The notes beneath the pieces were generated by a model. It was not told the DNA's origin. It ran no database searches and was given only the letters and a program-made list of their open reading frames with translations. Source: Methanoculleus sp. 7T (GTDB lineage Archaea > Halobacteriota > Methanomicrobia > Methanomicrobiales > Methanoculleaceae). From it: DNA of 64,000 nt. Below, piece after piece: positions 44,375 through 48,723 of the stretch. A program made the position numbers and the translations under genes. The stretch is from contig NZ_JALPRP010000002.1 of assembly GCF_023195915.1 (NCBI RefSeq), positions 1 to 64,000 of the forward strand. Direction: 5' to 3'. The first letter of the stretch is position 1. Every line of letters begins with the position of its first letter.

Positions 44375-45559
44375 TCAGATAAGATCGCTATAAACACTTA
44401 ATATATCTTTTCTTATGCTTTCCCACGAGTAGAGTCTGGAGCCCTTCACAATCGCATTGGTGTCCCACGGTGTATCTAGCGCCCTGAGAATACTTTCCGC
44501 AAGGCCTCGTGGATCTGCAACATCACAGAGTAGGCCTGTTTTACCAGGTATTACGATCTCTTCGCTTCCGCCGTTTTTCGTGGCAACGACTGGTTTCCCA
44601 CAGGCCATTGCTTCCACCTGCACAATCCCAAAACTTTCTCTCAGGCTTGGCAGGACAAAAACATCAGAAGCATTCATCCACAAAGGCATCTCGTTATGGG
44701 GTTTACCTCCGACAAGACGTACATATTGTTCAAGTCCCAATGACGATATTTTCTTTTCCAACCTGTGCTTTAACTCTCCCCGACCGACAATAAGACAAAG
44801 GACATCCATTCTCTCCCGAACAACTTCAGACATCGCATCAATCAGGTATGTGTGACCCTTGACTTCCACCAGATTTCCAACGCTTAGAATTATCTTTCGA
44901 TCTATAGGGAGGTTGAGGTTTTTCCTGCAGAGCTCTGTCTCCATCGGGTAAAATTGATCGTGCCTGAACCCGTTCGGCACAACTTTTACCGGAGCAGTCA
45001 CATTCAGTCTCTCCACGCATTCGCGGTTGCTGTTACTGACGGTTATAACCACATCGGCAGCGTTGAGAGTTGCTTCAATTCGCTCCTTCCATTCTGCGTC
45101 TCTGAATGGCAGATCATAGATATCATACCCATGTGCAGTGACGACAAACGGGATCCCGTATTCTTTCTTTAACATCGCACCTACAAAGCCGTTCGGCCAG
45201 ATAAAATGCGCATGAATAAGATCAGGATATACTCTGGACTTCTGGAGTCTGTCTTCGACGGCGTTGTAATGACGCTCTCCAATCCTTTTAAACTGATGGT
45301 CGCAGGGTAGATAGAAAAGGGATACTGGATGAATTGATACACTCTCCGGCATATTCGTCCGGTCAATAAGAGAGTCTTTCCGAAATGCTTTGAGGCGAGG
45401 GGTTGGAAATACTCGGGAGATCTCGGTCACTGGGTGGTATCTGACGTACACATCTACATGCGCGAACACCTTTGCGAGCAGCTCCACCTGGTCCTTGACA
45501 AAGGTGAGGTAATGATCAGATAAAACCATCAGTCTACGACTTTCCACAGGTACCGCCAT
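44375..45559 (-). CDS. Glycosyltransferase family 4 protein
   Basis: A 394-residue GT-B enzyme with the full GT4 donor-site signature: KIILSVGNLVEVKGHTYLIDA, YVRLVGGKPHNEMPLWMNASDVFVLPS and the E-x7-E motif ESFGIVQVEAMACGKPVVATKNGGSEEI. The acceptor half contains HAHFIWPNGFVGAML. It is last in the minus-strand deacetylase/ATP-grasp/PHP operon and overlaps the PHP gene by up to 31 bases. An internal ATG (MVLSDHYL, near 45529) would remove that overlap. Confidence 0.88.
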   Translation of the reverse strand: MAVPVESRRLMVLSDHYLTFVKDQVELLAKVFAHVDVYVRYHPVTEISRVFPTPRLKAFRKDSLIDRTNMPESVSIHPVSLFYLPCDHQFKRIGERHYNAVEDRLQKSRVYPDLIHAHFIWPNGFVGAMLKKEYGIPFVVTAHGYDIYDLPFRDAEWKERIEATLNAADVVITVSNSNRECVERLNVTAPVKVVPNGFRHDQFYPMETELCRKNLNLPIDRKIILSVGNLVEVKGHTYLIDAMSEVVRERMDVLCLIVGRGELKHRLEKKISSLGLEQYVRLVGGKPHNEMPLWMNASDVFVLPSLRESFGIVQVEAMACGKPVVATKNGGSEEIVIPGKTGLLCDVADPRGLAESILRALDTPWDTNAIVKGSRLYSWESIRKDILSVYSDLI

Positions 45560-46194
45560 CCTGATTGTATCAATTGCAGGAACTCATGCCGTTTCAGGTG
45601 ATGGGTTATCTGGGACCGGATAACTGCAGATCGTGAGGAGCACTCCGCGCAAACGACTCTTTTAACCTCCCAGGTGCCGGGGTTCACCAGCGCATTCACA
45701 TTCCCGATCTCGGCGTAGGTGTGCGCGTCGCTACCGTACGTCCCGGGCTTCAGAAGCCTCCCGGCGAGCTGCAACGCCCTCTCGTTCTGCTCCACTGTAC
45801 TTCGTGCGTTCCATACCTCGATGAGATCGACTGTTTTTGCCAGTTCGAGAACATTCAGGTGCGACCGATACGGGTGGGGCAGGACGGAAACACCTCCCTG
45901 TCCCCGGATTTCATCAATAACCTCATGCCACTTGTGGGAGCGGATCTCCTCATTGACTAAAAGACCGATAATATCGCCCGAGTCGGTCAGGATCTCTACG
46001 CCAGGGATGACAGTCATTCCAACCTCTTTTTCCAGTTTCATGGCTTCGAGAGAGCCCCGGATCGTATCGTGATCGGTAATTGCGACTCCGGTTAAGCCCG
46101 CATTTTTTGCCCGCTTCAGGATCCGCCTTGGCCTCATCAATGAGTCGTGCGAGTAACTCGAGTGGATGTGACAGTCAAAGTAGAGGTCTTCCAT
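45529..46194 (-). CDS. PHP-domain phosphoesterase
   Basis: A 221-residue protein with the four PHP metal-binding motifs: FDCHIHSSYSHDS (H9, H11), ITDHDT, LPHPYRSH and GSDAHTY. The family includes phosphoesterases such as histidinol phosphatase, cyclic phosphate hydrolases and polymerase-linked domains. The C-terminal ~50 residues with CAECSSRS add a possible extra metal site. The ATG at 46194 gives the domain start; the longer frame overlaps the ATP-grasp gene. It overlaps both neighbours, so it belongs to the same pathway. Confidence 0.85.
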   Translation of the reverse strand: MEDLYFDCHIHSSYSHDSLMRPRRILKRAKNAGLTGVAITDHDTIRGSLEAMKLEKEVGMTVIPGVEILTDSGDIIGLLVNEEIRSHKWHEVIDEIRGQGGVSVLPHPYRSHLNVLELAKTVDLIEVWNARSTVEQNERALQLAGRLLKPGTYGSDAHTYAEIGNVNALVNPGTWEVKRVVCAECSSRSAVIRSQITHHLKRHEFLQLIQSGWRYLWKVVD

Positions 46195-47326: not shown

Positions 47327-48723
47327 GCTAAAACCACGTCCACGTGCTCTCTATCGCACCTGATGTCCACATACCCGTCGCCGCAGACATACTCTGCATC
47401 GATATACCTGACCTGTGCCGGGTCAATATGAACCCGGAGACGCAACGGCGGCAATGACCGGGCCGTCTCGAGGCCCGCAACAGTAATCCTAAGACGGTCT
47501 TTGGTTTTCGAATAGTCTAGCCGGACACCGCGGCGCATCCTGAACCAATCGACGATATCGATCGCACGCGTTATCCAGGCATTGTCCGACTTTGCCCTGT
47601 TGATGATACTCGTATACACATTCCCCCAGTCGCGGGGCGCGGCCAGACAGTCGCTGTGCCAGAGAATCGTGACAACACCGCCATACTGCATCGCCTGATC
47701 GAGGATCTCATTGCAGGTCCGGTATGCCTCACTCTCATCCAGACTCAGGCAGTCTACCCGCTCGCAACCTTTCTCCGTCGTAAGCCAGCAGTGCCTTCCG
47801 AACAGACTGACGTCTTGGATGTGGAGAGGGAGTTCCAGCAGTCTCTCCACCCCGCGGGGCTGGTAGACCTGTAGCGTCCCCGCCCGGAATCCTACATCCT
47901 CATTATACCCAAACGTTGAGTCGTACTCGTAGCCCGCGTCATCGAGGATCTGCCAGGTCCCCTCATCGAAGTGCAGCCAGTGAACCCGTGTGCCCACCTT
48001 TACTCTTGCGTCCCTCGGGAGCGCCATGCGTTCGGTATCGGCACTGATCCTATCGATCCAATTATCTATGCCGTGAATCCCCACTTCCCAGCCTCCAGCG
48101 GTCAATTTCTTGATTGGGACATCATCAATTGAGTAATATCCGGCACGTATCTTCGGGGAGCCGATCCCTGCATGGCCGCTACGGGGCAGGAAGTAGAACG
48201 TGGATTTTACCTGGTGCTTCTCCTCGAGTTCTCTCCAAGTCTCGAAGAGATCCCAAGGATCCTCTGCAAGACCGAGTTTCGCGAGCACGATCCTGGCTCC
48301 TTCAATAAACCGCCGTTGACGAAAACAGTTGTAAGCTGCATAGAGAACAGAAGGAATAGATCTCTCCCTGACAGAGGTGGTATCTACATCATGCGTGAGC
48401 GCAAGCGAATAGTTATACCCCCAGGGTATCGGTGGAATCTCGATCAGCGGGGAAAAGTGTTTTATCTCCTGCCGCAGTGCATCTAGGCACTCGTCACAGA
48501 TCGGTTTACGGTTGCGAGGCACCCCCTCGTTGAGTGTATCGGCAATTTTTTTGATCAGGTCGTTGTCGGCGAGGTCGATTACGTTACGGGCTCCCGGTAG
48601 ATGGCTGTTTTTCGATATGACAACATCGTAGGTGGATGTCGGGGTGTACCATTCCCAAGGAACCTTCAGTAACTGAAACACTTCCTGGGCCGCATACTTG
48701 TCGTCGTACTCTACCCCTATCAT
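47323..48723 (-). CDS. NodB-like polysaccharide deacetylase family protein
   Basis: A 466-residue protein. The catalytic NodB homology domain covers about 105-390: the first motif is SLALTHDVDTT (the Asp pair), the second is GWEVGIHGIDNW, where the usual HxxxH is altered, and the last is VVTILWHSD. The N-terminal ~100 residues contain CDECLD, and the last ~60 residues form a beta-rich domain. These proteins occur in surface-glycan loci of archaea and bacteria; the deviating second motif means the activity is unproven. It heads a four-gene operon with overlapping ends. Confidence 0.8.
   Translation of the reverse strand: MIGVEYDDKYAAQEVFQLLKVPWEWYTPTSTYDVVISKNSHLPGARNVIDLADNDLIKKIADTLNEGVPRNRKPICDECLDALRQEIKHFSPLIEIPPIPWGYNYSLALTHDVDTTSVRERSIPSVLYAAYNCFRQRRFIEGARIVLAKLGLAEDPWDLFETWRELEEKHQVKSTFYFLPRSGHAGIGSPKIRAGYYSIDDVPIKKLTAGGWEVGIHGIDNWIDRISADTERMALPRDARVKVGTRVHWLHFDEGTWQILDDAGYEYDSTFGYNEDVGFRAGTLQVYQPRGVERLLELPLHIQDVSLFGRHCWLTTEKGCERVDCLSLDESEAYRTCNEILDQAMQYGGVVTILWHSDCLAAPRDWGNVYTSIINRAKSDNAWITRAIDIVDWFRMRRGVRLDYSKTKDRLRITVAGLETARSLPPLRLRVHIDPAQVRYIDAEYVCGDGYVDIRCDREHVDVVLA

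Follow-up and report, generated by a model that had tools for sequence, protein, structure and literature searches.

In Porphyromonas, a linking sugar has been proposed to arise by de-acetylation followed by re-acylation. In a 2020 mBio study (PMC7468200), VimE, a putative deacetylase, is deduced to remove the C-2 acetyl group of the Wbp product, and the FemAB-like protein VimA is deduced to add serine or glycine at that same position, giving the linking sugar. A comparable logic may operate in the archaeon Methanoculleus sp. 7T, where four overlapping genes encode a VimE/NodB-like deacetylase, an ATP-grasp ligase, a PHP-family phosphoesterase and a GT4 glycosyltransferase. These genes occupy positions 44375-48723, on the minus strand, of the 64,000-nucleotide stretch analysed here (hereafter the window), which is the start of contig NZ_JALPRP010000002.1 (contig C2) in a genome of 2.6 Mb. 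Our preferred reading, to which we assign a probability of roughly 0.55, is that its product is a sugar with an N-acyl modification, probably N-aminoacyl, destined for a surface glycan. The four open reading frames (ORFs) are as follows.

47323-48723, minus strand: VimE/NodB-like deacetylase, 466 amino acids (ORF listing, NCBIfam, predicted model, alignment)
46175-47326, minus strand: ATP-grasp ligase, 383 amino acids (Pfam, predicted model, alignment)
45529-46194, minus strand: PHP-family metal-dependent phosphoesterase, 221 amino acids from the ATG common to relatives (Pfam, alignment)
44375-45559, minus strand: GT4 glycosyltransferase, 394 amino acids (Pfam, NCBIfam, gene maps)

The deacetylase and ATP-grasp frames overlap by 4 bases and the PHP and GT4 frames by 31, while the overlap between ATP-grasp and PHP is 20 bases with the shared ATG at 46194, or 65 with the GTG that opens the longest PHP frame (45529-46239). 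An earlier note on this DNA had described four minus-strand genes overlapping end to start, and the ORF coordinates (4, 20 and 31 bases) confirm that layout. A scan for bacterial-type promoters and terminators, whose models are ill-suited to archaea, found nothing in excess of shuffled sequence. In the proposed pathway, the VimE-like enzyme would strip an amino sugar of an N-acetyl group; a plausible substrate is a 2,3-diacetamido uronic acid, either as such or in UDP-linked form. The ATP-grasp enzyme would then use ATP to turn a carboxylate, probably that of an amino acid, into an acyl phosphate and couple it to the freed amine, the PHP enzyme may take off a phosphate tied to the substrate or product of the ligase, and the GT4 might either transfer the finished sugar or build its acceptor. 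What the data establish is the set of genes with its order and conservation, the folds modelled for deacetylase and ligase, and the kept catalytic positions of ligase and PHP; the substrates, the kind of acyl group, the succession of the steps and the place of the phosphate are inferred.

Evidence that the genes act together comes from the surroundings of the ligase in other genomes. Scanning genome contigs with the ligase alignment yielded 367 related stretches, and the best 80, which were kept, include archaea (Methanomicrobiales, Methanosarcinales, Hermodarchaeum, Borrarchaeum, Hydrothermarchaeota and Micrarchaeota) and other taxa (WOR-3, Zixibacteria, Bacteroidetes, Acidobacteria, Nitrospirae, Desulfobacterales, Riflebacteria, Cloacimonas and Anaerolineales). 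Neighbourhoods were counted in the 48 of these 80 loci with at least 3 kb on each side of the ligase. Within 2 kb of it, a NodB-type deacetylase was present in 36/48, a PHP gene in 27/48, both in 21/48 and neither in 6/48. The first PHP profile included one PHP-methyltransferase fusion, and its weak matches (about 20-40 bits) can be methyltransferases, for example in L072 and L140; with that profile trimmed and a threshold of E 1e-6, the deacetylase was counted in 34/48 loci, PHP still in 27, both in 19 and neither in 6. The two weak deacetylase calls that this threshold drops (L110 and L159) pass the Pfam PF01522 cut-off. To gauge how common other deacetylase and PHP copies are in these loci, 136 control genes lying at least 4.5 kb from the ligase were treated alike, and a deacetylase was found within 2 kb of none of them and PHP near one (0/136 for both with the trimmed profile). 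Coincidence, or the ordinary clutter of glycan islands, is ruled out by this difference (36/48 and 27/48 against 0/136 and 0/136).

The ligase pairs with at least two kinds of deacetylase, namely the VimE-like kind and a DUF3473 type (for example in L107). The latter stands near the ligase in 12 of 18 Deltaproteobacteria- or Desulfobacteria-type loci, none of which has a PHP match above 40 bits, and its sole scored member (L143) reaches 269.5 bits against the cut-off of 276.2 for TIGR03006, the 'XrtA system polysaccharide deacetylase'. Protein distance matrices also correlate (ligase-PHP, r 0.71 over 34 loci; ligase-deacetylase, 0.81 over 26; PHP-deacetylase, 0.78 over 21; Mantel test, 0/2000 permutations, with the window included and L087-L091 left out), a comparison made without a control pair, so kinship of the organisms may contribute. 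The earlier note had proposed a single pathway in which a deacetylase frees an amine that the ligase acylates, and had suggested looking for the gene set in other archaea and bacteria, on the view that absent co-occurrence would speak against it. The genes do co-occur elsewhere, and the recurrence of the ligase-deacetylase pairing across phyla, with two deacetylase families, supports both the single pathway and this order of logic, in which the chemistry of each step would be as outlined above.

Two further features of these neighbourhoods were noted. Eight deltaproteobacterial-type loci (L127, L131, L141, L143, L147, L151, L158 and L166) combine ATP-grasp and the DUF3473-type deacetylase with ketosynthase and FabG-like clusters, some with an MMPL exporter, an arrangement resembling that of aryl-polyene-type clusters. 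Additionally, a family of about 262-285 amino acids occurs near ATP-grasp or PHP in L145 (8488-9276), L122, L135, L163 and L165, and the L145 protein has no Pfam match at E 1e-4 and no NCBIfam match at E 1e-10.

Within the order (Methanomicrobiales), a sample of 120 genomes was searched and the gene maps of 20 loci were drawn. The ATP-grasp gene was present at E 1e-10 or better in 39/120 genomes and a NodB relative of the deacetylase in 53/120. The same four-gene order was found in seven other genomes, four of the same genus (G034, G028, G016 and G004), one of family f5 (G093) and two of f4 (G009 and G015), and the families holding it, window included, are f1, f4 and f5. G002, from family f3, has the first three genes followed by a different GT4 (28% identity), while G112 has three of the genes, up to the end of its contig. 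A close version (at least 84% identity) occurs in 6 of 22 genomes of the genus and is therefore patchy within it. Downstream of 15 near-full-length copies of the long deacetylase, the next gene is ATP-grasp in 10, a hexapeptide-repeat gene in 2 (G017 and G033), FemAB in 1 (G021; FemAB 65.1 bits, cut-off 24; TIGR03019 74.7, below its cut-off of 260) and a weakly methyltransferase-like gene (below Pfam cut-offs), with a diverged ATP-grasp after it, in 1 (G045); in the last copy (G057) the contig ends. This suggests that the partner is exchangeable.

Up to E 0.1, the window deacetylase matches nothing in Pfam and a single NCBIfam model, VimE (NF053580, the model for UDP-2,3-diacetamido-glucuronate deacetylase), at 47.8 bits against an equivalog cut-off of 440. 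Relatives scored in other loci reach 44.8 to 142.6 bits with the same model. The protein comprises a small N-terminal domain, a NodB barrel (residues ~100-400) and a C-terminal beta domain, and carries the motifs LTHDVD, HGIDN, GTRVHW, YDST and LWH. Its AlphaFold model (predicted local distance difference test, pLDDT, 81) places it in the NodB/CE4 fold. The model aligns with the peptidoglycan deacetylase HP0310 (3qbu; Z 20.2, root mean square deviation (rmsd) 3.2, 237 residues aligned), with M. smegmatis 3rxz (Z 19.6), with the allantoinase PuuE (Z 18.6) and with ArnD (8t0j; Z 16.1, rmsd 3.5, 215 aligned). Residues that presumably correspond to the NodB/CE4 motifs are well conserved among 31 sequences: D112 and D114 (Asp base and metal Asp) in 27, with gaps in the other four; H217 (His motif), R246 and H248 (Arg motif) in 29, with two gaps; and H356 (final His) in 30, with one gap.

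The ligase belongs to the ATP-grasp superfamily (PF15632, 36.3 bits, cut-off 29.1). K113, K153, R212, G221, W247, E254, E268, N270 and W274 are kept in all 81 aligned sequences, and we take K113, K153, E254, E268 and N270 to be ATP/Mg residues. Similarly, the loop H210-x-R212-x-R214-E215 ... G220-G221 is nearly invariant (H210 in 78/81, R214 in 79/81, E215 in 80/81). The predicted structure (pLDDT 89) has 2pn1 as its top match (Z 27.6, rmsd 3.0, 287 aligned), with biotin carboxylases, PurK, GAR synthetase, PylC and an L-amino-acid ligase a few Z units behind. Given this wide field of matches, the modelled fold would indicate ATP-driven activation of a carboxylate, rather than which substrate is used.

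The PHP protein scores 47.9 bits with PF02811 (cut-off 26.4), and its eight metal-ligand positions are conserved, with H10, H12 and D18 kept in 38 of 39 sequences (one gap) and H43, E68, H108, D157 and H159 in 39/39. Its relatives of known structure (3e0f, 7ug9, 2yb1 and three others) cover several kinds of phosphoesterase and name no substrate. Across the order, every one of the 26 top-scoring PHP matches (E 6e-37 or better) comes from a genome that also has the ATP-grasp. The two genes are no more than 300 bases apart in 23 cases and 1.3-4.2 kb apart in the other three; weaker PHP relatives are near-universal (a match at E 1e-8 in 116/120 genomes) and were excluded from the counts. In one locus, L078, a single protein (7868-9337) joins a PHP domain to a methyltransferase domain at its C-terminus.

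Indirect support for a putative phosphatase role of PHP comes from the Desulfobacterales locus L140, where the ATP-grasp is fused at its C-terminus to a dual-specificity phosphatase domain (DSPc, 56.7 bits against a cut-off of 33.5). Downstream of this fusion lie a deacetylase of the VimE-like kind (93.2 bits with the VimE model, below cut-off) and then a GT4 (PF00534 48.6, cut-off 26.4), so that, judged by its predicted domains, L140 is the window operon's set of four functions with PHP replaced by another phosphatase superfamily. In L142, the ligase protein (10001-11788) has instead a tail with the motif GVDGTGKS, kinase-like by this motif (AAA_28 E 7e-4, below cut-off), and the same motif occurs in an ORF overlapping and downstream of the ligase in L123 (11112-12509). 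These fusions of the ligase to a phosphatase (L140) and to a kinase-like tail (L142) suggest that the phosphorylation state of the ligase's substrate or product may matter. A protein with GVDGTGKS was also seen near the ATP-grasp in L122 (12335-12982); we assume that the proteins of L142, L123 and L122 are thymidylate-kinase-like.

The GT4 scores 149.4 bits with PF00534 (cut-off 26.4), and its best NCBIfam matches include BshA (142.9, cut-off 273.7), TuaC (142) and MshA (129, cut-off 462.5), those to BshA and MshA being below cut-off. Among the matches listed from outside the order, identity to it is at most ~38%, and it was therefore rejected as a fixed member and is treated as the variable one. 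The earlier note had counted it as part of the pathway, but outside the order no other member is less constant.

A possible source of substrate lies about 5 kb from the operon, where a candidate Wbp-like set of genes (dehydrogenase, 3-dehydrogenase-like, aminotransferase and 2-epimerase, most of them below equivalog cut-offs) may supply an amino-sugar uronate:

54027-55112, minus strand: WecB-type UDP-GlcNAc 2-epimerase (above its cut-off)
55115-56593, minus strand: UDP-ManNAc dehydrogenase-like (above the NDP-sugar dehydrogenase subfamily cut-off, below its equivalogs)
56562-57476, minus strand: UDP-GlcNAc 3-dehydrogenase-like (163.2 against an equivalog cut-off of 450)
59186-60544, minus strand: DegT/DnrJ-type aminotransferase, candidate 3-aminotransferase (below all equivalog cut-offs)

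Several observations weigh against an N-acylated surface sugar as the product. The supply genes are common, with the 3-dehydrogenase-like gene in 36 of 39 genomes that have the ATP-grasp and also in 49 of 81 others, and 12/48 loci have no deacetylase, 21/48 no PHP and 6/48 neither. The match of the window deacetylase to the VimE family is weak, and classical CE4 enzymes have their second metal-binding His four residues after the first (H-x3-H), whereas the position four after H217 is not His but N221, in a column with S in 9, N in 8, A in 8, T in 2 and gaps in 2 (n = 31). Because this position varies and is not His in the window protein, deacetylase activity is not assured. None of the matches names a substrate for the ligase; the title of 2pn1 gives the name of a split carbamoyl phosphate synthase (CPSase) only, with no assigned function, and we know of no established function for it. 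The possible share of kinship in the matrix correlations counts on the same side, as does the presence of FemAB together with the ATP-grasp in L171, L172, L173 and the acidobacterial L114 (a deacetylase, a FemAB-like gene and the ATP-grasp), since a ligase that stands beside FemAB is not a simple stand-in for it.

The family f2 loci among these bear on a different role for the same chemistry. The product could be a linking sugar for protein anchoring, with the amino acid on the sugar supplying the amine to which a sortase-like enzyme (archaeosortase) would attach cleaved protein C-termini, the role put forward in Porphyromonas. For example, L172 (family f2; 2107-14734) holds, by typing of its genes, PIG-L, DUF354, a VimE-like deacetylase, FemAB, ATP-grasp, a second FemAB, a hexapeptide protein and an exosortase/archaeosortase that scores above TIGR04178 and PF09721 and below archaeosortase C. 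L173 has the clusters of L172, including two FemAB genes, and L171 has one FemAB, as assigned by cluster or profile, and relatives of both the deacetylase and the ligase thus stand in f2 sortase loci. In L174, three genes of the FemAB cluster are present, and the genome carries its sortase on a different contig. Together, these four loci (L171-L174) may be what corresponds in archaea to the Wbp/Vim linking-sugar system. The DUF3473-type partner in L143 resembles a model named for the XrtA system, and the window genome itself encodes archaeosortase A (305.3 bits, cut-off 75). However, that copy lies ~42 kb from the operon, and the TIGR04178 archaeosortase signature occurs in 116/120 genomes of the order and so carries no signal. 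PF09721 has no match in the window genome and has one in 15 of 36 genomes chosen from those behind the best 80 loci, while the exosortase matches in the genomes of L142 and L114 sit on contigs other than those loci. Moreover, the f2 ATP-grasp is 33-34% identical to the window's, and four f2 loci (L176, L177, L178 and L180) have the deacetylase and FemAB cluster without any ATP-grasp. A sortase link was accordingly demoted from main reading to rival, and we regard it as unlikely here.

The GT4 matches raise another prospect, a small molecule of the mycothiol or bacillithiol kind, in which a GT4 would couple acceptor and amino sugar, the conjugate would be trimmed by a phosphatase and a deacetylase, and an ATP-dependent ligase would add an amino acid. 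The mycothiol plan runs MshA, phosphatase, MshB, MshC, and the four functions of the operon match it; BshA and MshA are among the best NCBIfam matches of the GT4, and the fusions of the ATP-grasp to a phosphatase and a kinase-like domain would also fit. Set against this, the GT4 falls below both cut-offs, TuaC, a polysaccharide enzyme, scores equally (142), and many loci that keep the other genes have a different GT4 or none, making such a product improbable. It is somewhat easier to imagine, though still quite unlikely, that the ATP-grasp amidates a sugar carboxyl group, giving a uronamide or a C6 aminoacyl amide, with the deacetylase working independently on the same polymer. In ATP-grasp reactions, either partner can provide the carboxylate, and UDP-uronate-type genes lie nearby. 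Yet amidation would leave unexplained why deacetylases of two families are the partner in so many loci, and why FemAB and hexapeptide genes occur in the place of the ligase.

The operon stands in a stretch of distinct composition. Its G+C content is 0.52, compared with 0.505 for a low-GC island at 37.9-49.1 kb (37900-49100) that carries glycan genes including the operon, and 0.622 for the remainder of the window. Elsewhere in the island, a plus-strand cassette at 38934-42063 (RmlD-like reductase, PseB/FnlA-like dehydratase and WecB-like epimerase) would fit synthesis of UDP-L-FucNAc or a similar 6-deoxy amino sugar. Genes for histidyl-tRNA synthetase and topoisomerase VI subunits B and A lie at 28552-32654, and are 66, 69 and 78% identical, respectively, to their typed counterparts in L072. 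In L070, L072, L073, L075, L076, L094 and L095, no more than ~20 bases separate Top6A from the long deacetylase that follows it; in L068, L069, L071, L074 and L092 the gap is ~0.8-2.2 kb. The Top6A region is a fixed anchor, and the adjoining glycan genes vary.

More broadly, and tentatively, since we think it doubtful as a whole, the operon could represent a widespread, undescribed deacetylate-then-aminoacylate branch common to archaea and numerous bacterial phyla. In this branch, an ATP-grasp and a dedicated phosphatase would aminoacylate a surface sugar without aminoacyl-tRNA or FemAB, leaving a free amine usable as an anchor for sortase-like protein attachment. The uncharacterised three-gene cassette of deacetylase, ATP-grasp and PHP occurs from Methanoculleus to Hermodarchaeum (an Asgard archaeon), Zixibacteria, Bacteroidetes and Terriglobia. 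If the preferred reading is right, its presence would point to genomes whose surface sugars bear amino acids or other acyl groups. It would also offer a way into the study of archaeal surface glycans and of the molecule to which exosortases may attach proteins, which the available part of PMC7468200 does not identify.

Compared with known systems, the nearest sequence and fold relatives of the ligase are the PRK12767/PRK06849 'carbamoyl phosphate synthase-like' ATP-grasp proteins and 2pn1, although the window ligase scores below the cut-offs of those models. The mycothiol and bacillithiol pathways share the set of functions (GT4, deacetylase, phosphatase and ATP-dependent ligase) but differ in genomic setting, and their deacetylase, ligase and phosphatase belong to superfamilies other than those of the operon. 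The XrtA/PEP-CTERM exopolysaccharide loci (TIGR03006 deacetylase, TIGR03019 FemAB) are a further related system: the same ATP-grasp family lies near a DUF3473/TIGR03006-type deacetylase in the 12 of 18 loci mentioned above, whereas the window deacetylase is VimE-like and has no exosortase beside it.

The earlier note knew of no described system with this gene set. That statement misses the Wbp/Vim pathway (VimE, VimA, WbpABDE and WbpS) of Porphyromonas gingivalis and Tannerella forsythia. PMC7468200 proposes for it an equivalent sequence of de-acetylation and aminoacylation, and its deacetylase is a distant relative of the one in the window. For the set of ATP-grasp, deacetylase and PHP itself, no description was found among the open-licence papers listed, judged on titles and abstract openings. 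The ATP-grasp/PHP version therefore appears to be undescribed there, while its logic is already known from Wbp/Vim. The window differs in having ATP-grasp and PHP at the place of the FemAB-like VimA, with neither VimA/FemAB beside the deacetylase (a statement about the operon; the genome was not searched for FemAB) nor a sortase gene in the operon, and its deacetylase scores far below the VimE cut-off. The likeness lies in the arrangement, in which a VimE-related deacetylase adjoins a possible acylating enzyme and candidate Wbp-like sugar-nucleotide genes stand some 5 kb away.

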